From: Actinomycetes bacterium
Lineage (GTDB): Bacteria > Actinomycetota > Acidimicrobiia > Acidimicrobiales > Microtrichaceae
DNA length: 15,599 bases
Assembly (NCBI GenBank): GCA_023423475.1
Contig: JAFAFN010000279.1
Coordinates: 1-15,599, forward strand
Direction: 5' to 3'
In this document: positions 1-15,599 of the stretch, piece after piece
Layout of the letters: every line of letters begins with the position of its first letter
Numbering within the stretch: position 1 is the first letter of the stretch
Translations under genes and position numbers: made by a program
Notes under the pieces: model-generated
What the model was told of the DNA's origin: nothing
The model's input: the letters and a program-made list of their open reading frames with translations, nothing else
Database searches by the model: none

Positions 1-2
1 TC

Positions 3-1618: not shown

Positions 1619-1619
1619 C

Positions 1620-1662: not shown

Positions 1663-1673
1663 TGGGTCGACGC

Positions 1674-2582: not shown

Positions 2583-2590
2583 GGACAAGA

Positions 2591-2610: not shown

Positions 2611-2640
2611 GATGCACAAACCAACGGTGCGCGGCTCGAT

Positions 2641-2655
2641 ACGTGATGTTCACGT
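2641..2655. promoter_or_regulatory. Inverted repeat ACGTGA-TGT-TCACGT between divergent genes
   Basis: Perfect 6-bp arms around a 3-bp centre lie in the 186-bp gap between the minus-strand SDR gene and the plus-strand small membrane protein gene. An operator role is possible. The gap also holds TCGACA-GTTG-TGTCGA (2656-2671) and a 7-bp-stem repeat at 2702-2719. Confidence 0.35.
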
Positions 2656-2701
2656 TCGACAGTTGTGTCGACAAGGCCGTGGGCGACTACACATGTTGTT
2701 T

Positions 2702-2719
2702 CCCGACGACGACGTCGGG
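2702..2719 (+). other. Short hairpin in the leader of the small membrane protein gene
   Basis: CCCGACG and CGTCGGG pair around the four-base loop ACGA. The hairpin lies about 50 bases before the ATG at 2769. There is no T-tract, so I do not call it a terminator; it could be a leader structure or an operator. Confidence 0.3.
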
Positions 2720-2768
2720 GAACCGCAGGGCCTGTCACACCTCTCTCCCCCCCGTCGAGGCGCACGTC

Positions 2769-3005
2769 ATGGTCACCGTCATCATCATCACCGCCAGCAT
2801 CCTCGTCACCCTCGGCTGCCTCTTCCTCGGCGCCTACCTCGGCTACCGGGTGGGCTTCCGCGACGGCCGACGCTCGGCACGTCACACCACCGAGGCGCAC
2901 TGGGTCGACCTGCTCGAGGTGACCTTGAACGCCAACCGCTCGCGCAACGCGCATCCGAGCAACACACGCCGCGCGGTCCCGGAGCATCCGACCGAGCTGA
3001 TCTGA
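2769..3005 (+). CDS. Small single-pass membrane protein (78 aa)
   Basis: The 78-residue product has one strongly hydrophobic segment (about residues 3-24, ITASILVTLGCLFLGAYLGY) with small-residue spacing (G-x4-G-x3-G). A basic stretch follows (RDGRRSARH), and then a polar tail of about 40 residues. By the positive-inside rule the tail should be cytoplasmic. The ATG is preceded by GAGG eight bases upstream. I recognise no family. It is divergent from the SDR gene and lies just before the LLM gene on the same strand. Its TGA stop lies inside the left arm of the 2995-3023 inverted repeat. A much longer open frame extends upstream through panD and the SDR gene, but it is a shadow of their minus-strand coding. 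Coding status is likely but rests on the hydrophobic segment and the ribosome binding site. Confidence 0.6.
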   Translation: MVTVIIITASILVTLGCLFLGAYLGYRVGFRDGRRSARHTTEAHWVDLLEVTLNANRSRNAHPSNTRRAVPEHPTELI

Positions 3006-3028
3006 CGGGTCGTCAGATCAGCTGATCT
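2995..3028. promoter_or_regulatory. Compound palindrome / operator upstream of LLM gene (site 2)
   Basis: A perfect inverted repeat with 12-bp arms (AGCTGATCTGAC) and a 5-bp centre spans 2995-3023. Its right arm overlaps a second perfect 14-bp palindrome, AGATCAGCTGATCT, at 3015-3028. The ATCTGAC-N5-GTCAG core matches site 1 at 2591-2610. It sits where the -35 region would be if TACCCT (3028-3033) is the LLM -10 element. With no T-tract after it, an operator is more likely than a terminator for the small upstream gene, but both are possible. Confidence 0.6.
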
Positions 3029-3033
3029 ACCCT
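3028..3033 (+). promoter_or_regulatory. Possible -10 element (TACCCT) of LLM gene
   Basis: TACCCT fits the TAnnnT -10 pattern and would place the transcription start near 3040, about 60 bases before the GTG start. It overlaps the last base of the 14-bp palindrome. No clear -35 hexamer is seen. Confidence 0.3.
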
Positions 3034-3101
3034 GGGTGGACACTCGTCCAGCGTTCCGCCGACCGGCGGGGGCGGACACCGGCCAGCCACCAGGGGGACC
3101 C

Positions 3102-3953
3102 GTGCGATTCGGCGTCACGATCTTCGCAACCGACCAGTCCATGCAGGTGCCGCAGCTCGCGGTCGCTGCCGAGGAGCTCGGCTTCGATTCGGTCTGGATC
3201 CCGGAGCACACCCACATCCCGACCAGTCGGATGACCCCGCCCCCGACGGGTGACGACGTGCTCGCCGAGGAGTACAAGCGCTCGGTCGACCCGCTGATCG
3301 CACTCGCCGCGGCGGCATCGCTGACCTCGACGATCCGACTCGGCACCGGCGTGATGCTGCCGGCGCAGCGCGAACCGCTCGTCACGGCGAAGGCGATCGC
3401 GACGCTCCAGAACCTGTCCGGCGGCCGCTTCGACTTCGGCGTCGGCTTCGGGTGGAACGAGGACGAGATGGCCGACCACGGCGTCGACTACCGCACGCGC
3501 CGTGCCCACGCCCGCGAGCACATGCTGGCGATGCAGGCGCTCTGGAACGACGAGGTCGCCTCGTTCGACGGCGAGTACGTCAGCTTCCCCGACACGTGGT
3601 CCTGGCCCAAGCCGGACCACCACGTGCAGGTCCTCGTCGGCGGCGGGGCCGGCCCGAAGATGTTCGCCCACATCGCCGAGTACGCGGACGGTTGGATCCC
3701 GATCGGCGGCGCCGGACTCGCGGAGTCGATCCCCCGGTTCAAGGACGCCGTCGCCGCTGCGGGGCGCGATCCGGAGTCGATGCGCATCGTGCCCTTCGGG
3801 TCACATCCGACCGCCGCGAAGCTCGAGCACTTCGCCGAGATCGGCGTGACCGAATGCGTCTTCCGACTTCCGTCAGCTCCCGCGGACGACGTCCTGCCGG
3901 TGCTCGAGGAGCAGGCCCGCCTGATCGCCGAGTGGGTCACCCCCGAGGCCTGA
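3102..3953 (+). CDS. LLM-class F420-dependent oxidoreductase
   Basis: The 283-residue product is a bacterial luciferase-like TIM-barrel oxidoreductase, probably using F420 (F420H2) and cytoplasmic. Family motifs appear in order: RFGVTIFATDQS near the N-terminus, GFDSVWIPEH, then IRLGTGVMLPAQREP. These are followed by LQNLSGGRFDFGVGFGWN and finally VLVGGGAGPKM with YADGW. The overall pattern is like the Rv2161c-type subgroup. The GTG at 3102 has AGGGGG four bases upstream and puts the first beta strand at residue 2. An in-frame GTG at 3036 would add 22 low-complexity residues without family similarity. The substrate cannot be deduced; nearby lipid and steroid enzymes suggest a ketone or alcohol intermediate. 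The upstream inverted repeat, shared with the SDR gene, suggests co-regulation. Confidence 0.92.
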   Translation: MRFGVTIFATDQSMQVPQLAVAAEELGFDSVWIPEHTHIPTSRMTPPPTGDDVLAEEYKRSVDPLIALAAAASLTSTIRLGTGVMLPAQREPLVTAKAIATLQNLSGGRFDFGVGFGWNEDEMADHGVDYRTRRAHAREHMLAMQALWNDEVASFDGEYVSFPDTWSWPKPDHHVQVLVGGGAGPKMFAHIAEYADGWIPIGGAGLAESIPRFKDAVAAAGRDPESMRIVPFGSHPTAAKLEHFAEIGVTECVFRLPSAPADDVLPVLEEQARLIAEWVTPEA

Positions 3954-3962
3954 GCCGCTCCG

Positions 3963-3968
3963 TATCCT
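3963..3968 (+). promoter_or_regulatory. Possible -10 element (TATCCT) of lapA-like gene
   Basis: TATCCT lies 10 bases after the LLM stop and about 49 bases before the next ATG. No good -35 hexamer is seen, so read-through from the LLM gene is equally plausible. Confidence 0.3.
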
Positions 3969-4017
3969 GAGCCTCGACGCCTGCCCACCGCGGGCGCACG
4001 CACTCTGGGAGCACCCG

Positions 4018-4308
4018 ATGGCCGACCTACCGAACAAGCGACAACTCGAGTCGACCGGCGACAACTACGGCTTCCGGTTCAGTCCGAAGCTGCTGGGCGG
4101 CGGGCTGCTCGCCATCGTCCTCGTCGCGTTCATCCTGTCGAACCGACAGAAGGTGACCGTCAACTTCCTGTTCTTCTCGATGGACGACGTGCCGCTCTGG
4201 ATCACCCTGACGGTGACCGCGCTGCTCGGAGCAGCGGTCGGCACGATCGCGGTGTTCACCCGTCGCCGGGCGCGCCGCAAGGCACGCAGGGCCGAACGCA
4301 ACAGCTGA
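4018..4308 (+). CDS. LapA-like (DUF1049) two-helix membrane protein
   Basis: The 96-residue protein has a polar N-terminus and a first hydrophobic helix at about 24-40, followed by SNRQKVTVNFLFF. A second helix is at about 60-80 (PLWITLTVTALLGAAVG), and a very basic tail ends the chain (RRRARRKARRAER). The short N-x-Q-x-V-x-V-x-F-L stretch between the two helices is the hallmark of the LapA/YciS family. In E. coli, members of that family help regulate envelope lipopolysaccharide assembly; the role in actinobacteria is not established. GGAG lies eight bases before the ATG. It follows the LLM gene by 64 bases and converges on the next SDR gene. The family assignment is good; the biological role is unknown. 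Confidence 0.8.
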   Translation: MADLPNKRQLESTGDNYGFRFSPKLLGGGLLAIVLVAFILSNRQKVTVNFLFFSMDDVPLWITLTVTALLGAAVGTIAVFTRRRARRKARRAERNS

Positions 4309-4319
4309 CCGCCGCACCC

Positions 4320-4338
4320 GTCCGGCAGGCAGCCGGGC
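4320..4338 (+). terminator. Weak hairpin between convergent genes
   Basis: CCGGC (4322-4326) pairs with GCCGG (4332-4336) around AGGCA, extended by a U-G and a G-C pair. It starts 11 bases after the lapA-like stop and could end that transcript. No T-tract follows. Confidence 0.25.
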
Positions 4339-4364
4339 CGGGCGCGACGCGCTGGGCGGGGGCC

Positions 4365-5177
4365 CTACGCGCTGGGCGGCATCCAGTGTCCGGCGTTGAC
4401 CGGCAGCGCGGTCCCGGTGACGCACTTCGCGAGCGGTGAGGCGAAGAACACCGCCGCGCCCGCGATCTCCGAGGAGTGCGGGAGGTAGCCCAGCGCCGTC
4501 TCGGCCGCGCGCTCCTCGTAGACGTCCTCCCAGGTGGCCCCGTTGCCGCGCTCCTGCGCCTGCCACTCGAAGTAGATCTTCACGCTGTCACCCCAGATGT
4601 AGCCGGGGTGCACGGCGTTGACCCGGATGCCGTACTCACCGAGCTCGAGGGCGAGGGTCTTGGTGACCGCGCCGAGCGCCGCCTTGGACCCGGCGTAGGA
4701 CCCGGCCTTCTCCTCGAGCCACTGCACCGACATCGTGTTGATCATGACGATGCGTGCGTCGCCGGTGCGGGCCGCCGCGGCCTTGAGCTGCGGCAGCATC
4801 GCCTGGGTCAGCTGCAGCGTGCCGAAGTAGTTGATGTCGACCGGGCGACGCCAACGGTCGAGATCCGCGTCCTCGAAGCGCACGTGCTCACCGCCGTGGA
4901 ACGCGGAGTTGACCAGGATGTCGACGCCGTCGTCACCGACGGCGGCCGCGGTCTCGGCAGCGATGCGAGCGCAGTCCTCGGCCTTGGCAATGTTGCCGTA
5001 CACCTGGTGCGCGGTGCGACCGAGCGCCTCGATCTCCTCGGCCACCGATGGCACGACCTTGTCCGATCGAGCCACCAGCACCACGTCCGCACCTTCGCGG
5101 GCGAGGCCGAGCGAGATGTCACGCCCCATCCCCGGACCGATCCCGGTCACCACTGCGGTCTTGCCTTCGAGCAACAT
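4365..5177 (-). CDS. SDR family oxidoreductase
   Basis: This is a 270-residue short-chain dehydrogenase. The cofactor loop TGIGPGMG is at 11-18. The usual NNAG is replaced by NSAF (90-93). Asn115 in DINYFG, Ser150 in INTMS, and Tyr161 and Lys165 in YAGSK form the classical catalytic set, so it should be active. VLVARS after beta strand 2 hints at NADP, but this is weak. AGGGGG precedes the ATG by five bases. The gene follows the acyl-CoA dehydrogenase gene by 38 bases on the same strand and is probably co-transcribed with it. This order, acyl-CoA dehydrogenase then SDR, resembles the ipdE1-ipdF (Rv3560c-Rv3559c) pair of mycobacterial steroid-ring catabolism, but orthology is only a suggestion. 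The substrate is unknown. Confidence 0.92.
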   Translation of the reverse strand: MLLEGKTAVVTGIGPGMGRDISLGLAREGADVVLVARSDKVVPSVAEEIEALGRTAHQVYGNIAKAEDCARIAAETAAAVGDDGVDILVNSAFHGGEHVRFEDADLDRWRRPVDINYFGTLQLTQAMLPQLKAAAARTGDARIVMINTMSVQWLEEKAGSYAGSKAALGAVTKTLALELGEYGIRVNAVHPGYIWGDSVKIYFEWQAQERGNGATWEDVYEERAAETALGYLPHSSEIAGAAVFFASPLAKCVTGTALPVNAGHWMPPSA

Positions 5178-5215
5178 CTGGTCCCCCTGTTCTCGGCCCT
5201 CGTCGCGTCAGCGAC

Positions 5216-6451
5216 TCAGGACCGCTTGGTCTGCGTCCACGGCAGTTCACGATCCACCGACGGTTCCCTGGGCAGGCGCAGCGCCTGCTCCCCCAGGTTG
5301 TTCCGATGGACCTCTTCGGTGCCGCCCCCGATCCGCGAGGCGAACTGGTTGAGGCACTGGTACTGCCAGAAGCCGTCGCCCTCGGCATCGTGCCAGAGCA
5401 TGCCCTCGGCGCCCTCGGCGTCCACGGCGAGCTCGACACGACGCTTGAGCGAACGGGTGAAGAAGTTCTTCAGCAGCGACCCGTGCAGGGCCAGCTCGTA
5501 GCGCCCCGTCATGACGGCGGTCTGCGTCCGCCAGCCCATCCACCGCAGGATGTGCTCGTCGGTCCAGACCTGTACGAGCCGCTGACGGATGATCGGGTCC
5601 TGGTCGAGTCCGACACGGCGGACCGTCGAGAGGACCGCGGCGTACCCGGTCGCCTGCCCGGCTCCGGAGATCATGGAGCTCTCGGACTTGAGCGTCGTGC
5701 GCGTGACCTTCCAGCCGTTCCCGATCTCGCCGACGACGTTGGCCGCGGGAATCCGCACGTCGGACAGGAAGACCTCGTTGAAGTGGGCGACGCCCTGCGC
5801 CTGCACCAGCGGACGCACCTCGATGCCGGGTGAGGCCATGTCGACGATGAAGAACGTCAGCCCCTCGTGCTTGGGCACGTCCGGATCGGTCCGGGCGACG
5901 AGGATGCCGAACTGCGCGTGCTGCGCGCTCGAGGTCCAGACCTTCTGACCGTTGACGACCCACTCGTCGGCGTCCTCGTCGAACACGGCACGTGTCGCCA
6001 TCGCCGCCAGGTCGGATCCTGCACCGGGCTCGGAGAAGAGCTGGCACCACGACTCGTCACCGGCGAGCAGCGGCTCGACGTAGCGCTCCTGCTGCTCCGG
6101 CGAACCGTGCTGCATGAGCGTCGGCCCGACGAGCGCCTGGGCCGCGGTGATGAACCCGGAGGTCGCGTCGAAGTTGGCGAGCTCCTGGTTGAAGACGATC
6201 TGGTGCGCCGGGCTGAGACCTCGGCCCCCGAAGGCGACCGGCCACGTCAGGCCCGCCCAGCCCTCGTCGAAGAGCAGGCGCTGCCAGGCGTGGCAGCGTG
6301 CCCGGTAGTCCGCGGCGACCTCGGGATCGGTGGCCGCACCGTTGCGTGACCAGTCCCGCTCGTCGCCGTGCTTCGGTTCCGCGTGTGCGTCCAGGAACTC
6401 GCGCACCTCGGCGCGGAACGTGGCCAGCTCGGGTGAGTCCTCGAAATCCAC
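5216..6451 (-). CDS. Acyl-CoA dehydrogenase (FadE-type)
   Basis: This is a 411-residue FAD-dependent acyl-CoA dehydrogenase that introduces the alpha-beta double bond in a beta-oxidation cycle. The FAD/substrate signature FSEPGAGSDLAA is at about 139-150, NGQKVWTS at 167-174, FNEVFLSDVRIP at 224-235, and the C-terminal signature RIGGGTEEVHRNN at 373-385. The common catalytic Glu of YEGT is Gly here, so Glu257 in TLKSES is the likely base, as in dehydrogenases that use the alternative Glu position. The start is GTG at 6449-6451, with no Shine-Dalgarno site. TACGCT seven bases upstream would fit a leaderless transcript starting at the GTG. A KstR-box-like inverted repeat lies 15 bases before the start. 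Many actinobacterial FadE enzymes act on steroid side chains or rings as hetero-oligomers; no second subunit is present in this window. Confidence 0.93.
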   Translation of the reverse strand: MDFEDSPELATFRAEVREFLDAHAEPKHGDERDWSRNGAATDPEVAADYRARCHAWQRLLFDEGWAGLTWPVAFGGRGLSPAHQIVFNQELANFDATSGFITAAQALVGPTLMQHGSPEQQERYVEPLLAGDESWCQLFSEPGAGSDLAAMATRAVFDEDADEWVVNGQKVWTSSAQHAQFGILVARTDPDVPKHEGLTFFIVDMASPGIEVRPLVQAQGVAHFNEVFLSDVRIPAANVVGEIGNGWKVTRTTLKSESSMISGAGQATGYAAVLSTVRRVGLDQDPIIRQRLVQVWTDEHILRWMGWRTQTAVMTGRYELALHGSLLKNFFTRSLKRRVELAVDAEGAEGMLWHDAEGDGFWQYQCLNQFASRIGGGTEEVHRNNLGEQALRLPREPSVDRELPWTQTKRS

Positions 6452-6458
6452 GGGCCGC

Positions 6459-6464
6459 AGCGTA
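6459..6464 (-). promoter_or_regulatory. Possible -10 (TACGCT) for leaderless acyl-CoA dehydrogenase mRNA
   Basis: On the minus strand TACGCT is followed by seven bases and then the GTG start. This is the spacing expected when transcription begins at the start codon. The matching -35 region would lie inside the 6467-6498 inverted repeat. Confidence 0.35.
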
Positions 6465-6466
6465 GG

Positions 6467-6498
6467 CCACAGAACTGGAACCTGTTCCAGTTCTGTGG
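6467..6498. promoter_or_regulatory. KstR-box-like operator, 15-bp-arm perfect inverted repeat
   Basis: Arms CCACAGAACTGGAAC (6467-6481) and GTTCCAGTTCTGTGG (6484-6498) are perfect around a 2-bp centre. The core TGGAACCTGTTCCA (6476-6489) fits the published KstR consensus TnnAACnnGTTnnA at every fixed position. It lies 15 bases upstream of the acyl-CoA dehydrogenase GTG. It also lies just after the stop of the upstream same-strand gene, so it could fold as a hairpin and act as a terminator. No T-tract follows. Confidence 0.65.
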
Positions 6499-6509
6499 GC
6501 TGACCTGCG

Positions 6510-7268
6510 TCAGGACTGGGAGTTCGGTGCTGCCGTCGGCATCGAGTCGAGCGACATGCGCACGATCCCGATGCCGAGCAGCCGCGCCCGGTCGGCGACC
6601 TCGTCCGCGGGCGAGATCGCCCTGGTCAGCTCGTTGAACAACCAGCGGGCGACCCACCGACGCAGCAGCACGAGTCGACCGGGGACCGCGGCACCGGAGA
6701 GCCCCAGCCATGCCGAGAGCTCGGCGGAGGGGTCCGGGTCGGGGATCGAGTCGAGATGCAACGTGGGACGGACGTCGAGCAGCGCGGCATCGCCGCCCTC
6801 GGCCCACATGTGCGACAGGGCCGGACCGATCAGCGCGTACGGGGCGGGCCCACCGCTGCCGATCAGCACGAACTCGTGCTCGGCGTCCTGGGCCGACATC
6901 GCCAGCGCCGCCACCCTGCCGCCCTGGGGACGACGCAGCGCACGCCACGAGCGACCCGAGCGTGTCAGGCGGTCACGAAGGACCGACCTCGCAGGGTCCT
7001 CGGGCGACTCCATCACGAGCACCTCGACCCGGATCCGGTCCGGGTTCCAGGCATCGAGGCCCTCGAGGTAGCGCTCGCCCGCCGAACCGCCGGTCGGCAC
7101 GACCATGGACAGGCTCGTGACCACCGGGCCGGAGTGCTCCAGCAATCCGGCGGCACGGTCGTCGTGTCGACGGACCATCAGTCGGGTGACCGTCGGGTCG
7201 TCGAGCTCGGGGAGGTGGGGGTGGGGATGATCGAGATCAGACATGCAGTGGTGGGTCGGAACGGACAT
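6510..7268 (-). CDS. Degenerate GT2 glycosyltransferase-like protein
   Basis: The 252-residue product follows the strand order of a GT-A/GT2 fold. VVTSLSMVVPTGG (49-61) matches the first strand, RIRVEVLVMESPED (78-91) the second, RRPQGGRVAALA the nucleotide loop, and HEFVLIGSGGP (131-141) the strand that normally ends in the metal-binding DxD. Here DxD is replaced by SGG, and the usual VDDGS is VMESPED, so metal-dependent sugar transfer looks lost. There is a His-rich N-terminus (DHPHPH). The ATG at 7268 is one choice; ATG 7244 and GTG 7310 are alternatives and none has a strong ribosome binding site. It is on the same strand as the acyl-CoA dehydrogenase gene, ending 58 bases before its start. 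The fold assignment is by eye, and the function is unknown. Confidence 0.65.
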   Translation of the reverse strand: MSVPTHHCMSDLDHPHPHLPELDDPTVTRLMVRRHDDRAAGLLEHSGPVVTSLSMVVPTGGSAGERYLEGLDAWNPDRIRVEVLVMESPEDPARSVLRDRLTRSGRSWRALRRPQGGRVAALAMSAQDAEHEFVLIGSGGPAPYALIGPALSHMWAEGGDAALLDVRPTLHLDSIPDPDPSAELSAWLGLSGAAVPGRLVLLRRWVARWLFNELTRAISPADEVADRARLLGIGIVRMSLDSMPTAAPNSQS

Positions 7269-7326
7269 CGCCGTCCCGACCCGACTGGTATCGGAGTACC
7301 CGCACTGCACCTGAAGTTTTCTCCAA

Positions 7327-7340
7327 CACCCCGAGGGGTG
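7327..7340. promoter_or_regulatory. Inverted repeat CACCCC-GA-GGGGTG
   Basis: Perfect 6-bp arms around a 2-bp centre lie about 60 bases upstream of the GT2-like gene start and just past the thiolase relic. It could be an operator or the end of a lost gene's terminator. Confidence 0.3.
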
Positions 7341-7347
7341 ACGGGTG

Positions 7348-7398
7348 CTACAGGCGCTCGATGATCGTCACACGTCCGCCGACCCCACCCTCCGCCCG
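7348..7398 (-). pseudogene. Relic of a second thiolase 3' end
   Basis: On the minus strand the codons read R-A-E-G-G-V-G-G-R-V-T-I-I-E-R-L followed by TAG. The intact thiolase upstream ends C-E-G-G-G-Q-A-N-V-T-I-I-E-R-I. Nine of 14 residues from EGG onward match, with 14 identical bases in ACGATCATCGAGCG. In-frame stops occur just upstream (7399-7401), so only the last 16 codons remain. This looks like what is left of a tandem thiolase copy or of an older 3' end. Confidence 0.55.
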
Positions 7399-7448
7399 TC
7401 AGCTCCGCCGACGCGTGAGGAACGATCAGCGAGCGATCATCGCTCCGC

Positions 7449-8597
7449 TCAGATCCGCTCGATGATCGTGACGTTCGCCTGGCCGCCGCCTTCGCACATG
7501 GTCTGGAGGCCGTAGCGGCCACCGGTGCGCTCGAGCTCGTTGAGCAGCGTCGTCATGAGACGCACGCCGGTCGCACCGAGGGGGTGACCGAGTGCGATCG
7601 CGCCACCGTTGACGTTGACCTTGGACATGTCCGCGTCGAGCTCCTTGGCCCAGGCGAGCACGACCGACGCGAACGCCTCGTTGATCTCGACCAGGTCGAT
7701 GTCGTCGAGGGTCATGCCGGCCTTGTCGAGCGCGTAGCGGGTCGCCGGGATCGGCGCGGAGAGCATGCGGATCGGGTCCTCGCCACGCACCGAGAGGTGG
7801 TGCACCCGTGCACGAGGCGTCAGGCCGTACTGCTCCACCGCACGCTCGGACGCGATCAGCATCGCCGCGGCGCCGTCGGAGATCTGCGAGGCGAGCGCCG
7901 CGGTCAGGCGGCCACCCTCCATGAGCGGCTTGAGCGAGCGGATCTTCTCGACGTTGGGCTCACGAGGGCCCTCGTCCTGGGTGATCTCACCGAACGGCGC
8001 GATCTGGGAGTCGAAGCGGCCCTCGGCGCGAGCGGCGATCGCACGCTCGTGCGACTGGATCGCGAACGCTTCCATCTCTTCACGCGAGAGGTCCCAGTCG
8101 CGGGCGATCATCTCGGCACCGTTGAACTGGTCGACGGGCTGGTCGCCGTAGCGCTTCACCCAGCCCTCGGAACCCGAGAAGGGGTCGGTGTAGCCGAACT
8201 GCTCGGCGACGAGCATCGCCGACGAGATCGGGATGGCGGACATGTTCTGCACGCCGCCGGCGACGACCAGGTCCTGGGTCCCCGACATGACGCCCTGCGC
8301 AGCGAAGTGCACGGCCTGCTGGGACGAGCCGCACTGACGGTCGACGGTGGTGCCGGGCACCTCTTCGGGCAGTCCCGCGGCGAGCCAGCAGGTGCGGGCG
8401 ATGTCACCCGCCTGGGGGCCGATGGTGTCGAGGCAACCGAAGACGACGTCCTCGACGTTCGACGGGTCGATGCCGGTGCGGTCGACCAGTGCGTTCAGGA
8501 CGTGGGCACCCAGGTCGGCGGGGTGCACCTGCGACAGGCCGCCACCCTTTCGCCCCACCGGGGTGCGGACGGTGTCGATGATGTAGGCCTCGGCCAT
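7449..8597 (-). CDS. Acetyl-CoA acetyltransferase / 3-ketoacyl-CoA thiolase
   Basis: This is a 382-residue thiolase that cleaves 3-ketoacyl-CoA with CoA to release acetyl- or propionyl-CoA, the last step of a beta-oxidation round. The nucleophilic Cys89 is in VDRQCGSSQQA, NEAFA is at 306-310, His338 in NVNGGAIALGHPLGATG, and Cys368 in MCEGGG, so the catalytic set is complete. The motif usually read as TAGNAS is TAALAS here. The start ATG has GGAGG seven bases upstream; an open frame continues further upstream but without thiolase similarity. Length and motifs fit the FadA5/FadA6 type used in steroid catabolism, but also general degradative thiolases. It is divergent from the thioesterase gene. 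A relic of another thiolase end lies about 50-100 bases downstream. Confidence 0.95.
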   Translation of the reverse strand: MAEAYIIDTVRTPVGRKGGGLSQVHPADLGAHVLNALVDRTGIDPSNVEDVVFGCLDTIGPQAGDIARTCWLAAGLPEEVPGTTVDRQCGSSQQAVHFAAQGVMSGTQDLVVAGGVQNMSAIPISSAMLVAEQFGYTDPFSGSEGWVKRYGDQPVDQFNGAEMIARDWDLSREEMEAFAIQSHERAIAARAEGRFDSQIAPFGEITQDEGPREPNVEKIRSLKPLMEGGRLTAALASQISDGAAAMLIASERAVEQYGLTPRARVHHLSVRGEDPIRMLSAPIPATRYALDKAGMTLDDIDLVEINEAFASVVLAWAKELDADMSKVNVNGGAIALGHPLGATGVRLMTTLLNELERTGGRYGLQTMCEGGGQANVTIIERI

Positions 8598-8667
8598 GGG
8601 GGAACCTCCGGGACGGGTCGCCGGATGGCGACATGGTGTCGGTCGTGCCGACGTGCGACAGCGAACA

Positions 8668-8673
8668 CCGTAG
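8668..8673 (-). promoter_or_regulatory. Possible -10 (TACGGT) of thiolase gene
   Basis: TACGGT on the minus strand fits TAnnnT and lies about 70 bases before the thiolase ATG, in the 169-bp divergent gap. Short inverted repeats CGACA-TGG-TGTCG (8629-8641) and GTCGG-TCGTG-CCGAC (8638-8652) lie downstream of it and could be regulatory. The evidence is weak. Confidence 0.25.
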
Positions 8674-8766
8674 GTGCCGACTCCGTTCCCGGCCATGTGG
8701 CCGAGCCGGGTCGGCCGGGTGCACATCTGCGGCGGTGGGGCGTGCGGACCTGCAACACTCACAGCC

Positions 8767-9231
8767 ATGACGTCGTGGCGCGCCGAACAGTTCGACCTCC
8801 TGCCGCAGTCGGTGCACGACCGATGGTCGAACTTCGGCACATGGCCGGGTCACACCTACTTCTCGAACGTGGTGGGCATCGAGGTCGACGAGCTCCGTCG
8901 CGACTACGCACGGATGTCGCTCCCCTGGCGGGGCGAGCTCAACCAACCGCAGGGGCTGATGCACGGCGGTGCCATCGCCACGCTGATCGACACCGTCGTC
9001 GTCCCCCCGATCGGCACTGCGTATCCGGACCCTCGCCCGTTCTCGACCATCGAGATGTCGATCCGCTACCTGGGTCCGGTCCGTCAGGAGGACCTCGTCG
9101 CCGAGGGATGGATCACCCGTCGCGGCAGCGGCGTCGTGTTCTGCGAGGCAGAGGTGCGCACCGCGTCCGGGGTGAAGGTCGCGTCCGGCAACCTCATCTA
9201 CGTCGTCGGAGCACCTGTCGAACCGAGCTGA
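8767..9231 (+). CDS. PaaI-type hotdog-fold acyl-CoA thioesterase
   Basis: This is a 154-residue hotdog-fold protein that should hydrolyse an acyl-CoA to the free acid and CoA. The family signature is clear: Asn59, then HGG at 66-68 in LMHGGAIATLIDT, with Asp75 as the likely catalytic acid. The strand pattern STIEMSIRYLGPV and the C-terminal ASGNLIYVV complete the single domain. The ATG at 8767 gives the normal family length; an in-frame ATG at 8674 would add 31 unrelated residues. There is no Shine-Dalgarno sequence, so it may be leaderless. It is transcribed away from the thiolase gene and ends three bases before the stop of the convergent sulfatase gene. A role in recycling CoA during lipid or steroid breakdown is inferred from this context. 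Confidence 0.88.
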   Translation: MTSWRAEQFDLLPQSVHDRWSNFGTWPGHTYFSNVVGIEVDELRRDYARMSLPWRGELNQPQGLMHGGAIATLIDTVVVPPIGTAYPDPRPFSTIEMSIRYLGPVRQEDLVAEGWITRRGSGVVFCEAEVRTASGVKVASGNLIYVVGAPVEPS

Positions 9232-9234
9232 CGC

Positions 9235-11133
9235 TCACGGCTCGATGATGGGGAACCAGAAGTGGAAGTCGTCGAGCAACGACGACAGCTTCCGCAGCAC
9301 CTCGATGTCGCCGTCGACCTGTACGTCACCGCGGGCGAGGTGGTCATCGAGACCGCTCGACGAGGTCACCAGCGCCTTGAACGCCGCGGCCGTCGTGCGC
9401 AGGGTCACCCCCGCGTCGGGACGCAGCTCGCCGCCGGTGTGGTGCAGGACCGATCGTCGGACCTCGATGACCCGCTGCTCGGCAGGATCGGTGAGCTCCA
9501 GGTTGATCACCAGGTGCTCGCCGTCCGCAGCGGGTCCGTTGAGTCGGACTGCGAGGTAGTCGATCAGCATCGCGACCGGCATGGCGGCGATCGTGTCGGG
9601 GCTCACGAACGCGCGGTCGCCGAAGTCGAGCGTGCCGATGCGGAGCTCCTGCGCGCCGGTCAGGTAGAAGTTGCGCCAGACCCCGTTCTCGGTCTGGTAG
9701 CCGAGCTGCTCGAGCGTGTCCGCGAGCAGCTCGCGTGCGGTGGTGTCGGCGGGGTCCGCGAACACGACGTGGTTCAGCACCTGCGCGACCCACCGGTACT
9801 CACCCGCGGCGAAGTCGGCCCTGGCTCGTTCGATCACCGCCCCCGCACCGCCCATGTACTCGACGTACTTCACGCTCGACTCGACCGGCGGCAGCGGGTG
9901 CAGCGTCGACGGGTTGCCGTCGAACCAACCGAGGTAGAGGTTGTAGACAGCCTTCGCGTTGTGGTTGACCGAGCCGTAGTAGCCGCGGTTGCACCACCGC
10001 TCGCCGATCGAGGGTGGGAAGTCGATCTGCTCGGCGATCTCGACCATGTTCTCGCCGTGGTTCGCCAGTCGCAGCGTCTGGTCGTGCAGGTACTTGTAGG
10101 CGTCGCGCTGGGACTCGAGGAAGTCGACCACCCGGTCGCTGCCCCACGTCGGCCAGTGGTGCTGCGCGAAGCACAGGTCGGAGTCCTCGGCGAAGAGGTC
10201 GATCGCCTTGTCGATGTAGTACGCCCAGGCCTTGGCGTCGCGGGTCCGGGCGCCGCGCAGCGTGTAGAGGTTGTGCAGCGTGTGCGTCGCGTCCTCGGCG
10301 GTGCACAGCGCCCTGAACCCGGGGAGGTGGAAGAGCATCTCGGCGGGTGCCTCGGTGTCGGGCGCCAACATGAACACGAACTCGATGCCGTCGATCGTCA
10401 TGGTCTGGACGTCGTCGACGATCTCGTCGGTGGGCACCATGAAGCTGGTCGGGGCCAGCGGGATGCCGAGACCGAGCGCGGGTGACACGGTGCCGGTGGG
10501 GCCCTTCGGCAACAGAGGCCCGTACATGTAGCTCGCCCGACGGCCCATCGCGTTCCCGGCCAGCACGTTCTCGGACAGGGCCGCCTCGGTGAAGCCGACC
10601 GGCGCGATGATCCGGGTGCGACCCGCGTCGACGTCCTCGTCGGTGGTGACGCCCCGCACCCCGCCGTAGTGGTCGATGTGGCTGTGGGTGTGGATCACCG
10701 CGTGCACCGGCCGGGCACCGCGGTGTGCGGTGTAGAGCTCGAGCGCCGCACGCGCCGTCGGCGGCGCCGTCAGCGGGTCGACCAGGACCACACCGGTGTC
10801 GCCCTCGATGATCGTCATGTTCGCCAGGTCGGCGGACCGCACCTGGTAGATGCCCTCGCACACCTCGAAGAGCCCGTGGAGCGTGAGGAGCTGCGTCTGG
10901 CGCCGCAGGCTCGGGTGCACGGTGTCGGGGCACTCTTCCTCGTTGACCCACTGGTACGGCGCGACGTCCCAGACCTGTCCGCCGTCGGCGTCGAGGATCG
11001 ACCCGCCGTCGGGCAGCGGTGCGACGAAGCCTCGTTCGGCGTCGTGGAAGTCCGCTCGGTCGTCGCCGTCGAGCAGCTGCGCCGCGTGCGCCAGCACGTC
11101 CCTGGTGGCATCGGTCGCGGGCTTCGGGGTCAT
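9235..11133 (-). CDS. Class III alkyl sulfatase (metallo-beta-lactamase fold, SdsA1/YjcS-like)
   Basis: This 632-residue enzyme should hydrolyse alkyl sulfate esters to an alcohol and sulfate. Zinc-binding motif THSHIDHYGG is at 149-158 (His150, His152, Asp154, His155). TEAPAEMLFHLPG is at 260-272, and Glu280 lies in CTAEDATHTLHNLYTLRG. AQHHWPTWGSD is at about 323-333. A helical dimerisation region follows (about 340-510) and the last 120 residues form an SCP2-like lipid-binding domain. This matches the family in order and length. No signal peptide is seen, so it is probably cytoplasmic. GAGGAG ends five bases before the ATG; frames extending to 11550 overlap the upstream gene and are not real. 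It lies 67 bases after the nuclease-like gene on the same strand. Sterol or fatty-alcohol sulfates are plausible substrates from context only. Confidence 0.95.
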   Translation of the reverse strand: MTPKPATDATRDVLAHAAQLLDGDDRADFHDAERGFVAPLPDGGSILDADGGQVWDVAPYQWVNEEECPDTVHPSLRRQTQLLTLHGLFEVCEGIYQVRSADLANMTIIEGDTGVVLVDPLTAPPTARAALELYTAHRGARPVHAVIHTHSHIDHYGGVRGVTTDEDVDAGRTRIIAPVGFTEAALSENVLAGNAMGRRASYMYGPLLPKGPTGTVSPALGLGIPLAPTSFMVPTDEIVDDVQTMTIDGIEFVFMLAPDTEAPAEMLFHLPGFRALCTAEDATHTLHNLYTLRGARTRDAKAWAYYIDKAIDLFAEDSDLCFAQHHWPTWGSDRVVDFLESQRDAYKYLHDQTLRLANHGENMVEIAEQIDFPPSIGERWCNRGYYGSVNHNAKAVYNLYLGWFDGNPSTLHPLPPVESSVKYVEYMGGAGAVIERARADFAAGEYRWVAQVLNHVVFADPADTTARELLADTLEQLGYQTENGVWRNFYLTGAQELRIGTLDFGDRAFVSPDTIAAMPVAMLIDYLAVRLNGPAADGEHLVINLELTDPAEQRVIEVRRSVLHHTGGELRPDAGVTLRTTAAAFKALVTSSSGLDDHLARGDVQVDGDIEVLRKLSSLLDDFHFWFPIIEP

Positions 11134-11200
11134 GCGGTCTCCTCGGCTCCTGGTGTTCGGGTCGGCGCAGCGCGCGGCTCCGAGCGGGGTGCCGGCGACC

Positions 11201-12142
11201 CTACCGGGGGCCGCCCGACTCCTGGTCGTCGTGTGCTCGGACGGTCGGATCGGTCGACGGATCGGCGCCGAGGTGGGTCCGACCCTCGGCGCAGTCCTCG
11301 AGCAGGTGGCACCAGGTGCAGTCCCTGCCCGGCGCGGCCGGAGCGCCGTCGGGGTCGGCTCGGACCTGTACGACCTCGAGCACCCGGTCGACGGTGAGGT
11401 CGAGCAGGGCCTCGTCGACGACCACCGCGGTGCGCGTGCCGGTCGACGGTGCGCCGGTGGTGATGCGCACCGGTGCGTGTCGGGTGCCGAGGGACCGGAC
11501 GAGTGCCAGGTAGCCGGCGCGCAGTCGGTCCGAGGGCCGCGGCGCCGCATCGCTGATGCTCAGCAGGCGTTCGCCCGACACGACCCCGCCCATGACCGCA
11601 TCCAGCGTCGCCCGGAGCTGCACGACACGACCCGGCACGTTCCATGCGGGCGCACGAGCGGGATCCGCCCAGACGATCCTCGGGTCGCGCCCCACCAGGC
11701 GTAGTGCGCCGTCGCACCAGGTGGTGACCGCCGCGACGAGCGCGGCGGTGCCCGCCCGGTCGAGGTCGCCGACCCACATCCGGAGGTTGTTGGGCCAGTC
11801 GAGCTGCTCCTCGATGACCCGCTGGACCGCATCGGCGAGACCATCGCTCGAGGGCGTGCCGGGCGACCACGGACGAGCGGCGAGCTCACGGAGCACGAAC
11901 AGCCCGAGACGTCGCCGGGCGGTCGCGGTCGACTCGAGGAAGTCCTGCGGCGGGTGCGCGAGCCGGCGTGCGCAGCGCTCGGTGAGCCAGAACGCGTCGA
12001 CCACGACGCCGTCGGAGAAGTAGTCCGCCTTCTCGCCCTCGGCGAGCACGAGGCGGTCCCCGAGCAGCACGTCGATCGACGAGGTCAGCCGCTCGGTGGC
12101 GTGCTCGGCCAGACGACGCCGCTCGTCGCGCTCAGCACTCAT
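11201..12142 (-). CDS. Inactivated PD-(D/E)XK nuclease-like Fe-S protein
   Basis: The 313-residue protein parallels its upstream neighbour. Cys57 in LTERCARR and Cys275-x2-Cys278-x5-Cys284 in RDCTWCHLLEDC match the four-cysteine Fe-S frame of Cas4/AddB/RecB-like nucleases. The Cys57-Cys275 distance (218) is almost the same as in the neighbour (219). Asp181 in ATLDAVMG corresponds to the first active-site Asp. The E-x-K motif that should follow is S-I-S (195-197), and the Q-x3-Y motif is degenerate (RLRAGYLAL). It should therefore bind a cluster and perhaps DNA but not cut. The ATG at 12142 lies 11 bases inside the preceding gene, with GGAG nine bases upstream, so translation is probably coupled. 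A structural partner of the active nuclease is my inference. Confidence 0.8.
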   Translation of the reverse strand: MSAERDERRRLAEHATERLTSSIDVLLGDRLVLAEGEKADYFSDGVVVDAFWLTERCARRLAHPPQDFLESTATARRRLGLFVLRELAARPWSPGTPSSDGLADAVQRVIEEQLDWPNNLRMWVGDLDRAGTAALVAAVTTWCDGALRLVGRDPRIVWADPARAPAWNVPGRVVQLRATLDAVMGGVVSGERLLSISDAAPRPSDRLRAGYLALVRSLGTRHAPVRITTGAPSTGTRTAVVVDEALLDLTVDRVLEVVQVRADPDGAPAAPGRDCTWCHLLEDCAEGRTHLGADPSTDPTVRAHDDQESGGPR

Positions 12143-13064
12143 CGCTCGTCGCTCCGTCGTCGGGATCGCCGTCGTCATCGAGACGGGCACTGGGGCAGAC
12201 TTCGGCATCCGCGCACCAGCGGCACCACCGTCCCGGCGACTCGCCGGCGGGGCGACCGGCGCGGAGCTCGGCCCAGGTACCGATGGCATCGGTGAGCCGC
12301 GCCGCGGCGGCCTCGAGCACCCCGAGCGTGACCGGCGTGCCAGCCGGAGGCGAACCGGGGTACCAGCGAGCGACGTTGACCGGGGCGACCCCGTCACGCA
12401 GCCCGACGAGCAGCGCATAGAGGTAGGCCTCGGCCTGGTGCGATGACGCCGGCCGACCCGACTTCACCTCGACGACCACGCCCGGCAGTCCGGTCGTCGG
12501 TCCGCCGAGCTCGACGTCGACCACTCCGGAGCAGATCACGTCGCCGGCGGCGAGCACGATCGTCGCCCGGGACTGGGTCCTCGGCGCCCACGAGGGATCG
12601 ATGCCGGTCCAGGCGTCGGCGACCGACGACGCGAGCGGATCGAGCGACTCGGCGAGGGTGGACTCGTCGAGCCCGTCGATCTGCTCGACGAGGTCGAGCT
12701 CACCCTCGGCATCGCACATCGAGCGCAGTGCGGCGCTCGGTTCGAGGACCCGCCCCGCGACCAGCTGATGGGTGACGAAGCGGTCGAGCGCGATGCCGCG
12801 CAGCAGTCCCAGCGCGTCGGTCCCCGTCTCGGGAGCCGACGGAGCGGCCGGCCGTGCCGACGCGACCGCCGAGCGCTCGCATCGCTCGATCTCGGTGATA
12901 CGGCCCTTGGGGACGCGCAGCGGCAGCAGGTCGGCGTCGACGTGACCCGCGTGGAGCAGCGCCGCTCGAGCCGCGCCGTCGAGCTCGGCGCGCAGCTCGG
13001 CGATCGACCCGGCGTCGACCGCCGTCGGCATCACCAGATCGGACAACCACGACGGCACCGGCAT
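12132..13064 (-). CDS. PD-(D/E)XK (RecB/Cas4-like) nuclease with Fe-S cluster motif
   Basis: This 310-residue protein is a probable DNA exonuclease. The nuclease core has GIALDRFVTHQL (90-101), Asp183 in GVVDVELGG, Glu199-x-Lys201 in VVVEVKSG, and Gln210 with Tyr214 in HQAEAYLYAL. Cys62 in IERCERS plus Cys281-x2-Cys284-x5-Cys290 in RWCRWCADAEVC form the four-cysteine Fe-S frame known from Cas4, AddB and related RecB-family nucleases. No helicase domain is present and none is seen nearby. ATG 13064 is chosen; ATG 13031 also fits, and no clear ribosome binding site decides between them. Frames beyond 13064 run into the divergent promoter region. The gene overlaps the next gene by 11 bases. No cas genes or CRISPR array are in the window, so a Cas4 role is unlikely. 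Confidence 0.88.
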   Translation of the reverse strand: MPVPSWLSDLVMPTAVDAGSIAELRAELDGAARAALLHAGHVDADLLPLRVPKGRITEIERCERSAVASARPAAPSAPETGTDALGLLRGIALDRFVTHQLVAGRVLEPSAALRSMCDAEGELDLVEQIDGLDESTLAESLDPLASSVADAWTGIDPSWAPRTQSRATIVLAAGDVICSGVVDVELGGPTTGLPGVVVEVKSGRPASSHQAEAYLYALLVGLRDGVAPVNVARWYPGSPPAGTPVTLGVLEAAAARLTDAIGTWAELRAGRPAGESPGRWCRWCADAEVCPSARLDDDGDPDDGATSDEC

Positions 13065-13141
13065 CGCCCGACATGCTCGCAGACCGCAGGGACACGCCGG
13101 CCCGAAGATGAACGACCGATGACCTCCGGGTGGACGCAGGG

Positions 13142-13171
13142 TTGAACCAGAGGTGGCTCCCCTGACACGAT
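13142..13171 (+). promoter_or_regulatory. Possible promoter TTGAAC-18 bp-CACGAT
   Basis: TTGAAC (13142-13147) and CACGAT (13166-13171) are spaced by 18 bases, about 54 bases before the PI-PLC-like gene start. The -10 match is imperfect. A 7-bp-stem hairpin (GCGGGTC / GACCCGC, 13185-13203) lies in the leader before the GGGGGG ribosome binding site. Confidence 0.35.
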
Positions 13172-13224
13172 GCGGGTGCTGGCGGCGGGTCGTGGGGACC
13201 CGCGCACCGACCGGGGGGTCACCG

Positions 13225-14448
13225 ATGGGCGGAACGTTGACGAAGGACGGCTCGCGGTTCACCCGCCGGCTCCTGACGACCGGGACGATCGCGTTGTGCG
13301 GACTGCTGGCTGCGGCGTGCACCACCGCACCGCCGTCCAACTCGGGCGGTGGCGGCATCGGCTCGGGCGACGGAGAGGCGACCCAACCGAGCGGCGACGA
13401 GGACGTCGCTCTCAACGAACTGCAGTTCATCGGCTCGCACAACAGCTACCACGTCGCCCCCGAGGCGCCGATCATGCAGTGGCTGACCTTCGGTTCGATG
13501 CTCGTGCCCCAGGTCGCCACTGCACTCGGTGACCCGCAGCAGCTCAACTACACCCACGCGCCGCTGGCGACGCAGCTCGACCGGGGCGTGCGCACCTTCG
13601 AGCTCGACATCTTCGCCGACCCCACCGGCGGCCGGTTCGCCAACCCGCTGCTGCCCCAGCTCCTCAACCTCGCCGTCGCACGACCGACCGGCATGGACCA
13701 GCCGGGCATGAAGGTCGTGCACATCCAGGACATCGACTTCCGCTCGACGTGTCCGACCCTGGTCGGGTGCATGTCGGAGCTGAAGACCTGGTCCGACGCA
13801 CATCCGGGCCACCTGCCCATCGTGATCAACCTCGAGCTCAAGGACGACGCACTCCCTGCACCGTTCGACGGCACGAGCATCGTGCCGTTCGACCGTGCGC
13901 AGCTCGACGCCGTCGACGACGAGATCCTCAGCGTGCTCGGCGACCGCCTGATCACCCCTGACGACGTGCGCGGCGACGCCGTCGACCTGCGCACCGCGGT
14001 CAGCACCACCGGCTGGCCGAGCGTCGCCGAGAGCCGCGGCCGCTTCCTCTTCTTCATCGACAACGCCGGCAAGCGCGACGCCTACCTCGAGGACCATCCC
14101 TCGCTCGAGGGTCGCGTGATGTTCACCAGCTCGGGTGAGGGCCAGCCCGACGGCGCCGTGCTCAAGGAGAACGACCCCGGCGACGGCAGTCGCATCCGCT
14201 CCCTGGTCGAGCAGGGCTACCTGGTGCGCACCCGTGCCGACGCGGACGTCGTCGCACCGAGTGCAGCCACCCGCGACGTCGCGCTCGCCTCCGGCGCCCA
14301 GATCGTGCACACCGACTTCCCTCCCGGTGAGTCCCACAGCGCGAACGGCTACGTGGTCTCGTTCGGGACCCGTGTCGCCGCACGCTGCAACCCCGTACTC
14401 ACCTCGTCGAGCACCTGTGACGCCCCCGTCGCGGTGGAACCTCGCTGA
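13225..14448 (+). CDS. PI-PLC-C1-like phospholipase C, putative lipoprotein
   Basis: The 407-residue precursor begins with KDGSRFTRRLL and a hydrophobic stretch ending LLAAAC, so Cys32 is a likely lipid-attachment site. T-R-R-L-L fits a Tat-like twin-arginine motif, suggesting export in a folded state. A Gly/Ser-rich linker (38-58) follows, then a TIM-barrel domain. NELQFIGSHNSYH (64-76) carries the first catalytic-type His (72 or 76). RTFELDIFAD (123-132) and HIQDIDF (166-172) carry the second His and acidic residues, and INLELKDD (201-208) completes the active site. This order matches the Ca2+-dependent PI-specific phospholipase C family (PI-PLC-C1). ATG 13225 has GGGGGG seven bases upstream; an earlier in-frame GTG at 13153 lacks this. 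Phosphoinositide or glycerophosphodiester cleavage is expected from the family, but the substrate is not shown. It is divergent from the nuclease pair. Confidence 0.85.
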   Translation: MGGTLTKDGSRFTRRLLTTGTIALCGLLAAACTTAPPSNSGGGGIGSGDGEATQPSGDEDVALNELQFIGSHNSYHVAPEAPIMQWLTFGSMLVPQVATALGDPQQLNYTHAPLATQLDRGVRTFELDIFADPTGGRFANPLLPQLLNLAVARPTGMDQPGMKVVHIQDIDFRSTCPTLVGCMSELKTWSDAHPGHLPIVINLELKDDALPAPFDGTSIVPFDRAQLDAVDDEILSVLGDRLITPDDVRGDAVDLRTAVSTTGWPSVAESRGRFLFFIDNAGKRDAYLEDHPSLEGRVMFTSSGEGQPDGAVLKENDPGDGSRIRSLVEQGYLVRTRADADVVAPSAATRDVALASGAQIVHTDFPPGESHSANGYVVSFGTRVAARCNPVLTSSSTCDAPVAVEPR

Positions 14449-14687
14449 GCCGACCAGCGCCGGCGACCGGGTCGTCGACGAGGTGAACCACGTTCGACAT
14501 CCCGGAGAATTGTCCGAAAAGTCTTCAACACTGGACACTTGCCTATGGAGTTCCGAACGTCGCTCATGTACCGTCCGAAGGGTCATGAGCCGGCTGGGCC
14601 GTGGCGTTTGGGACGGAACGCTGCCGACATCGTCGGCGGCACGACACGGGCGAACGGCGGATCGTCGGCGCCGAGTGAGGGGAACAC
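14449..14687 (+). promoter_or_regulatory. Intergenic leader with AT-richer patch, promoter likely
   Basis: This 239-bp gap has a less GC-rich patch at about 14505-14580, unusual for this window, and probably holds the promoter of the next gene. TCTTCA (14521-14526), 16 bases and TATGGA (14543-14548), or TTGTCC (14511-14516) with GACACT 18 bases later, are weak candidates. The rest would be a leader of about 130 bases with an inverted repeat GCCGAC-ATC-GTCGGC (14623-14637). The direct repeat ATCGTCGGCG occurs at 14629 and 14661. I recognise no known riboswitch. Confidence 0.35.
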
Positions 14688-15560
14688 ATGCATCGCACGC
14701 GCACGTGGAGGGCGGCCGCGATCGGCCTGCTCGCCGTGGTCACCATCGCCGCCGGGGCATGCGCCCCGCAGACTCCCGGTGGCGGCATCGCCACCAAGGA
14801 CTGGCAGTTCCGCGGCACCCAGGTCACTGTCAACGACAGCCAGGACTCGATCGGCATCTGCTGGCCTGCCGTCCTGTGCCAGGACGAGCCCTACCTGCTG
14901 AACATCGGCTTCCGGGTGAAGATCGGCCAGGCCGGCTCCGCCCAGGTCCAGGTCACCAACGACCGGACGAACGCTCCCGAGAACGTCGGTGAGGGCCAGA
15001 CCGTGCAGGTCGCACCCGGTCCCGGCGGCCAGAACATCTTCAACGGCGTGCAGGCACTCGACGTGCTCGATCTTGCCAACTCGGCCAACAAGCTCGAGGT
15101 GTTCGGCACCTACGTCTGGGCCTCGGAGGAGGACCAGGTCGGCAACGGTCTGGCTGCGGACTCCGTGGCGGACGCACTCGAGGATGCCCTCAACAGCACC
15201 CTCGCCACCGCCAACCTGTCGAGCCTCGATGCGAGCTTCATCCTGGACCTCATCCTCGGCAACATCGGCAACGCGTTCGGCATCCTGGTGCAGAACATCC
15301 CACTGCTCGGCCTCGGTGACGACCTGCTCGGTGGCGGCATGTACATCGGCATCGGTGCCCAGGGCACCCTCGGCGCGGCCCTCGACGCGACGATCGGAAC
15401 CACCCCGTTCCCGGCGATCAACCTTCCGGTCGTCAACATCCCGCCGAACATCAGCGCCGGCGGCTTCTACACCCTGACCGGTCCGAAGACCTTCACCCAG
15501 ACCTTCAACGGTGCCGGCGGCAGCCACACCTGGACCATGCAGTCCGGTCCGGTCGCCTGA
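14688..15560 (+). CDS. Putative secreted lipoprotein of unknown function
   Basis: The 290-residue precursor has a basic start (MHRTRTWR), a hydrophobic stretch (about 9-22) and Cys25 in AAGACAP, so lipid attachment after export is likely. The ATG has GAGGGG about six bases upstream. The mature part starts with a beta-rich region (KDWQFRGTQVTVNDSQDS) with a probable disulfide pair (Cys58 and Cys64), then PYLLNIGFRVKIGQAGSAQV. Next is a Leu/Ile/Gly-rich amphipathic region (about 170-250), which includes GNIGNAFGILVQNIPLLGLG and GAQGTLGAALDATIG. The C-terminus is Thr/Gly-rich beta (TGPKTFTQTFNGAGG). I recognise no family. The alternating hydrophobic pattern could be an envelope-associated or self-assembling surface protein, but this is inference. 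It follows the PI-PLC-like gene on the same strand but has its own leader. Confidence 0.75.
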   Translation: MHRTRTWRAAAIGLLAVVTIAAGACAPQTPGGGIATKDWQFRGTQVTVNDSQDSIGICWPAVLCQDEPYLLNIGFRVKIGQAGSAQVQVTNDRTNAPENVGEGQTVQVAPGPGGQNIFNGVQALDVLDLANSANKLEVFGTYVWASEEDQVGNGLAADSVADALEDALNSTLATANLSSLDASFILDLILGNIGNAFGILVQNIPLLGLGDDLLGGGMYIGIGAQGTLGAALDATIGTTPFPAINLPVVNIPPNISAGGFYTLTGPKTFTQTFNGAGGSHTWTMQSGPVA

Positions 15561-15585
15561 TCCGAACCACCTCGAACGACGGCCC

Positions 15586-15599
15586 GGGCAGCGCTGCCC
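15586..15599 (+). terminator. Likely terminator stem, cut by window end
   Basis: GGGCAGCGCTGCCC is a perfect 14-bp palindrome 25 bases after the stop of the secreted protein gene. It would fold as a GC-rich stem, but a following T-tract, if any, is outside the window. Confidence 0.4.

Follow-up and report, generated by a model that had tools for sequence, protein, structure and literature searches.

A linked gene pair for a predicted Fe-S nuclease and a pseudonuclease paralogue in an actinobacterial lineage

Known nuclease pairs and the present locus

Pairs of an active and a dead nuclease are known from inside helicase machines and from eukaryotic repair. RecB has an active nuclease domain and is partnered by RecC, whose own PD-(D/E)XK domain is inactive and is not known to have cluster cysteines; in AddAB each nuclease domain belongs to a long helicase-type polypeptide, and the two are generally regarded as active. 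XPF-ERCC1 and MUS81-EME1 are active/inactive nuclease heterodimers that arose by duplication, and the nuclease domains of AdnA, AddB, Cas4 and Dna2 cut or trim DNA ends or flaps. Here we analysed two adjacent genes, A and B, in a 15,599-nucleotide stretch of actinobacterial DNA (contig JAFAFN010000279.1, positions 1 to 15,599; the whole stretch is called the window). A encodes a predicted PD-(D/E)XK nuclease of the iron-sulphur (Fe-S) type, and B a paralogue of it that has lost the E-x-K motif and retained the four cysteines. We consider it fairly probable (about 0.6) that A and B together make up a stand-alone nuclease of the Fe-S type, encoded on the chromosome and serving housekeeping DNA repair, in which B is the non-catalytic subunit.

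A preliminary description of this DNA had likened the pair to the division of labour in AddAB-type enzymes. The pairing of a predicted nuclease with a partner lacking E-x-K held up, but the comparison with AddAB proved weaker, because the AddAB domains are carried on helicase-type chains and both are thought active; RecB with the dead RecC domain appears to be the nearer analogy. AdnAB and AddAB resemble A and B in the fold of the nuclease domain and were among the best structural matches of both. They differ in that A and B are stand-alone proteins of 310 and 313 residues, with the helicase polypeptide missing and the catalytic residues lost in one partner. The superfamily 1 (SF1) helicase domain, which AddAB and AdnAB carry on the same polypeptides, was found in neither A nor B, and neither Pfam nor NCBIfam listed a helicase family for either protein at an E-value of 10 or less. 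The RecB and RecC chains were weaker structural matches of A and B; they too differ from the pair in having a helicase, and B keeps cluster cysteines, unlike the RecC domain. XPF-ERCC1 and MUS81-EME1 are more distant, being eukaryotic or archaeal, of another nuclease branch, and built on a nuclease without an Fe-S cluster.

ACE1, an Argonaute-associated Cas4 family protein (PDB 9iab, 9iac), was ranked first by Foldseek for B (E 6.1e-5) and stood within the top ten matches of A. It differs in its setting, with no Argonaute domain found among the ten window genes scanned, and we know of no active/dead pairing there. Cas4, solo-Cas4 and the Cas4-like proteins of pfam12705 combine a nuclease core with a cysteine cluster, as A does. 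Solo-Cas4 is said to be mainly vertically inherited; the same source notes a single Cas4-like protein that has been inactivated, from an archaeal virus, and in the parts consulted describes no active/dead pair (PMC5704561). Membership in Cas4/CRISPR was rejected for the present genes: on the cas4 equivalog TIGR00372, whose cut-off score is 65, A reached 14.3 bits and B gave no match, and the Cas4 matches in NCBIfam and PADLOC were weak and to A only.

Active/dead PD-(D/E)XK partners and the Fe-S nuclease domain are thus of a kind already known. What our searches of the open-access literature did not turn up, and we take to be new, is a bacterial pair that has no helicase, carries cluster cysteines in each partner and shows stepwise decay. 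This small pair comes with natural intermediates, namely intact nucleases that stand alone, active/dead pairs in which both partners have a cluster frame, such a pair with only one frame (L033), and pairs without cluster or full E-x-K, and these make the roles of a dead nuclease partner and of a second Fe-S cluster directly testable. Since 31 of the 296 genomes sampled from one class carry it, the gene pair is not a local oddity.

Fold and residues of the two proteins and their relatives

In agreement with the preliminary description, the structure predictions gave both proteins a PD-(D/E)XK superfamily fold. The models correspond to the nuclease fold of the AdnA/AddB/Cas4/Dna2 type, with structural matches to AdnA at Z 15.4 (A) and 12.2 (B); on the predicted structure and its matches, an unrelated fold for B was rejected. 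When the family profiles of A and B, made from close relatives, were compared with hhalign, 224 columns aligned with a probability of 96.4 and E 1.4e-9; wider sets gave E 5e-14. The A profile also matched 13 of 18 B open reading frames (ORFs) directly in sequence, with E from 1.3e-12 to 1.8e-5. The likeness of A and B is more than chance. B had no Pfam family match. By sequence search of the PDB, A found no entry at E up to 1 and B four weak, unrelated entries at E up to 10, and the PHROGs search gave no match. At E up to 1e-3 there were at least 126 database relatives for A and at least 25 for B, scoring being confined to the 7996 and 7994 candidates, respectively, that shared most with the query.

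Residues were compared in an alignment of 131 rows, none identical, consisting of 48 A, 22 unpaired singletons (S), 23 B, and 18 A' and 20 B' from a sub-clade in which the pair has decayed. The A' and B' sets were assembled from profile matches and neighbourhood, and the A' of L109 belongs to no set. In this alignment Cys62/281/284/290 of A fall in the same columns as Cys57/275/278/284 of B, and E199-V-K201 of A faces S195-I-S197 of B, so that the common cysteine frame and the replacement of E-x-K, both noted earlier, were borne out. The D...(D/E)-x-K motif of A (D183, E199 and K201) was present in 48/48 A rows, all with E-x-K; equally invariant (48/48) were the four cysteines, of which one precedes the nuclease core and three follow it. 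Gln210, which had been listed with Asp183 and the E-x-K residues, was not conserved (Q in only 12 of 48). The S rows had D-x-K and four cysteines in 22/22.

The B rows presented a different picture. Neither E-x-K nor (D/E)-x-K occurred in any of the 23, while C-x2-C was found in 23/23, all four cysteine columns in 21 and three columns in two. Among close B homologues the four cysteines were invariant (24/24) and (D/E)-x-K was again absent (0/24). As B' had none either (0/20), no B-type homologue examined had an intact motif. The earlier statement that B is catalytically dead held for the second acid and the lysine but not for the first metal-site acid, which is still there in 23/23 rows (D in 22, E in one), as it is, as D or E, in all 131 rows (A' 18/18, B' 20/20); the loss is therefore partial and does not take in the whole metal site. 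B is homologous to the PD-(D/E)XK superfamily, yet it is not an active-type member. Judged by their cysteines, both A and B are predicted to bind 4Fe-4S clusters.

The two genes, both on the minus strand, have the lengths and overlap first reported for them, and their called starts are consistent with the homologues (Table 1). In the singletons (L035-L054, L113 and L117) D-x-K stands in place of the E-x-K of A, and His is found where A has Asp94 (22/22 S rows against 0/48 A rows).

Table 1. Coordinates of the two genes and their features in the window
Feature	Positions	Strand	Length	Basis
Gene A, catalytic subunit (predicted Fe-S type PD-(D/E)XK nuclease)	12132..13064	minus	310 aa	
Gene B, pseudonuclease subunit: A paralogue, E-x-K lost, four cysteines retained	11201..12142	minus	313 aa	
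A/B overlap	12132..12142	minus	11 bp	
GGAG, possible ribosome-binding site of B, within the 3' end of A, 9 nt before the B ATG	12152..12155	minus		inference from sequence
A Asp183 codon, first metal-site acid	12516..12518	minus		
A Glu199-Val-Lys201 codons (E-x-K)	12462..12470	minus		
A Cys62 codon	12879..12881	minus		
A Cys281/Cys284/Cys290 segment	12195..12224	minus		
B Asp181 codon, aligned with A Asp183	11600..11602	minus		alignment
B Ser195-Ile-Ser197 codons at the E-x-K position	11552..11560	minus		alignment
B Cys57 codon	11972..11974	minus		alignment
B Cys275/Cys278/Cys284 segment	11291..11320	minus		alignment

Linkage, descent and the decayed sub-clade

A contig scan with the A alignment only gave 50 stretches that matched the pattern, 19 of which were confirmed as loci. 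B lay directly downstream of A in 18 of the 19, and the contig of the remaining one (L007) ends within A. The class sample consisted of 296 genomes from the GTDB class of IMCC26207 (locus L004), which we take to be Acidimicrobiia; NCBI places this organism in Actinomycetes, unplaced within, and four of the 19 scanned loci are titled Microthrixaceae or Acidimicrobiales. Among the best B-profile matches of this sample, sorted by E-value, nine genomes had E <1e-50, and A was adjacent in all of them. G282 and G245 gave weaker B matches that nevertheless were adjacent to A, and their A had E-L-K and four cysteines. The B' profile reached E <1e-50 in 19 genomes, with an A-type match directly upstream on the same strand in 19/19, and in G292 the partners are fused. 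No strong B match was found apart from A in the class sample. In a phylum sample, also of 296 genomes, only G001 and G092 passed E 1e-50 with the B profile, both of which are in the class sample too, and the next match had 4e-26. Absence of B at 20 singleton loci (L035-L054) was judged from about 1.5 kb on each side, ten longer regions (L064-L073) and the class-wide searches. A and B were thus linked wherever a strong B match exists; commonly unlinked genes, another fold for B and B homologues with an intact E-x-K, which the preliminary description had named as evidence against it, were not seen. The B gene at L016:10648-11641 is divided between two overlapping frames, by either a sequencing error or a real break. 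The records of L001 and L002 are titled Bifidobacterium breve, but their loci are very like L003 and L004 and the titles are probably wrong.

It could be argued that linkage is the mere trace of a tandem duplication and that the adjacent paralogues work independently. Tandem duplication is the likely origin of the pair, and related genomes conserve gene order generally. However, the pair stays together while the flanking genes vary between sub-clades, strong B matches away from A are missing from the sample, and in one lineage the two form a single ORF; of all the alternatives weighed here, we hold this one to be the least probable. That ORF (L114:2016-4580) encodes 854 residues, in which a low-complexity linker connects an A'-like part at the N-terminus to a B'-like part at the C-terminus. 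It has one database relative, P0146 (801 residues, 78% identity over 97%; 2 member sequences on 2 contigs). The fusion is the best, though indirect, pointer to a physical complex of A and B and, together with adjacency across relatives, suggests that they are probably one two-part machine. In P0145 (436 residues) a B-like C-terminus is joined to the start of an alkyl-sulfatase-like protein; this may be a frame error, as the B and alkyl sulfatase genes neighbour each other in the window.

The tree was made from 107 rows by a quick search, with 24 of the 48 A rows and without six columns (the four cysteines, E and K); its midpoint root leaves S either as ancestral or as a lineage that lost B. 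A branch with a support of 99 in the Shimodaira-Hasegawa-like approximate likelihood ratio test (SH-aLRT) separated B and B' from A, A' and S. A' grouped with the intact A of L033 (SH-aLRT 95), where this A is paired with a B'-type, already cluster-less partner. In hhalign comparisons B' matched B (E 2e-15) much more closely than A (E 0.002). The simplest reading of these sequences would be one duplication, followed by loss of catalysis in B, then loss of the B cluster, and finally loss of E-x-K and cluster in A. The ratio of nonsynonymous to synonymous substitution rates (dN/dS) among L001-L004, in six comparisons each, was 0.11-0.19 for B and 0.07-0.14 for A, and comparisons involving the window genes were saturated. 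B is one clade under purifying selection, and on these values a decaying pseudogene was rejected. Three comparisons among decayed loci gave 0.24 and 0.36 for A' (the third being saturated) and 0.29, 0.29 and 0.23 for B'. The distances of A and B correlated over 30 loci (Spearman 0.81, 0 of 1000 permutations) and over the 12 whose A is intact (0.67, again 0 of 1000). In our view the pair is best read as a repair-type Fe-S nuclease that is inherited vertically and has a pseudonuclease as one subunit.

In the decayed loci (L096-L105, L107-L112, L115 and L116) A' is without a complete (D/E)-x-K, and the clusters are gone from both partners. The 18 A' rows carried D in 15, S in two and T in one at the E position, and T in 13, K in two and L, V or H in one each at the K position, so that (D/E)-x-K was complete in none. 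None had all four cysteines either; 16 had no cysteine at the four columns, L096 had two and L114 three. Of the 20 B' rows, 12 had R at the E position, 15 had R at the K position and none had a cluster cysteine. The decayed genes nevertheless remain adjacent. A typA/BipA gene lies directly downstream of the pair in 17 of 18 loci, and an lhr-type helicase gene, identified by a Pfam scan on L115, is divergent and just upstream of six pairs (L097, L098, L099, L107, L110 and L115). Since this lineage keeps the pair, the partnership may have a value beyond cutting. In L100, L102-L105, L108 and L112 a small gene (about 73-90 residues) lies upstream of A' in place of lhr, and the larger upstream genes of L102 and L103 had no Pfam family match.

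These observations bear on two further explanations. The pair might mainly be a nucleic-acid-binding platform, with cutting ancestral or optional, and in the decayed sub-clade it might have turned into a pair of pseudonucleases acting together with TypA/BipA or Lhr. The residue losses in A' and B', the retained adjacency and the recurrent typA and lhr genes all favour such a platform, and as the second acid is present in no examined B or B', the role of B was probably never cutting. On the other side, 15 of 18 A' retain both acids and may still bind metal or cut weakly, and the intact site and four cysteines of every window-type A argue that cutting matters there; we hold the platform explanation to be less likely than ours but a serious rival to it. 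Alternatively, B could neutralise or chaperone A, a harmful nuclease being restrained by its dead sister, as the overlapping genes, the missing catalytic site of B and the strict linkage would allow. Yet B' persists where A' has lost both (D/E)-x-K and cluster, the pair, with its nuclease gene in first place and its inheritance on the chromosome, does not resemble mobile toxin pairs, and A had no plasmid or phage match; we consider such a restraint very unlikely.

Proposed function and genomic surroundings

For the two-subunit repair nuclease that we favour, we propose the following. A, with its complete metal site and predicted 4Fe-4S lobe, would cut or trim DNA ends or flaps. B, presumably born by one duplication, would have become a non-catalytic subunit with the loss of its second acid and lysine; it would dock on A, and probably on DNA too, and help to hold or orient the strand, while its cluster may be a structural element. 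The overlap of the genes would couple the synthesis of both proteins. Passed on vertically, the pair would take part in housekeeping DNA repair beside RecBCD- or AddAB-type enzymes, and would not be a defence system.

Several points weigh against this proposal. The cluster lobe of B is the weakest part of its model (residues 271-300; predicted local distance difference test scores of 51, 56 and 50). On Pfam PF12705 (PDDEXK_1) A scores 21.5 bits, just below the gathering score of 22, which the A of a relative (L095) exceeds with 33.2 bits. The distance correlation and the linkage could also come from shared vertical descent, and the repair role leans on analogy, inheritance and a few neighbours. 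Moreover, the 18 A' without (D/E)-x-K or full cysteines mean that cutting by a cluster-bearing A is not the whole function there. A bolder idea, which we put forward only tentatively, is an obligate nuclease/pseudonuclease heterodimer founded once in the class, in which the partnership outlived the chemistry: catalysis by B, then the cluster of B, then E-x-K and cluster of A would have been lost from a pair still adjacent, selected and once fused. Its core job would be to keep nucleic acid in a defined geometry, with DNA cutting as an accessory, and in the decayed sub-clade a process linked to TypA or Lhr would have taken the pair over.

The neighbours in the window belong to lipid and general metabolism (PI-PLC-like, alkyl sulfatase, thiolase, acyl-CoA dehydrogenase, thioesterase, SDR and luciferase-like), and two of the ten genes scanned were without a family. 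Among 22 pair loci compared, the thiolase family was found in 15 and the acyl-CoA dehydrogenase family in 14, the annotation covering part of the neighbours and loci. Gene calls came from a simple GC-frame (guanine-cytosine) script, and starts may be misplaced.

The pair had been described as one without a helicase, and in the window none was found beside it among the ten genes scanned; helicase genes do lie beside the pairs at L017 and L061 and the six decayed pairs next to lhr. At L017:2905-9754 an AddAB-like operon is divergent from an intact-type pair, about 75 bp from the called start of A; its AddB-like gene matches PF12705 with 116 bits, and its AddA-like gene matches both UvrD and PF12705. 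A gene on the B side of this pair has a weak REase-ARP match (31.1 bits). A gene for a DEAD/ResIII helicase, at L061:11476-13122, is convergent with B, its best NCBIfam model being far below cut-off. RecC (PF04257) was present in 22 of 41 genomes (10/12 with an intact-type pair, 10/19 with a decayed-type pair and 2/10 with singletons), a pattern in which G292 lies below cut-off and which phylogeny confounds, so that we draw no mechanism from it. RecC-RecB-RecD genes were adjacent in three genomes with an intact-type pair (L074, L075 and L077). Two adjacent long PF12705 frames occurred in three of four singleton genomes and two of ten pair genomes; those of G119 (L078), the sole case scanned, were AddB-like and AddA-like. 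With helicase-nuclease genes elsewhere in the same genomes, the pair is additional to them there.

The defence role that had been suggested beside repair found little support. No relatives of A were found in phage, plasmid or viral-contig sequences, PADLOC gave only the weak Cas4 match to A (14.3 bits, E 0.0072) and none to B, and no defence neighbours were seen among the ten window genes scanned. With no more than this from PADLOC, A missing from phage, plasmid and viral records and mostly metabolic neighbours, a defence system seems unlikely. At L081 (G263) the gene calls look CRISPR-related, and short repeats run through the region.
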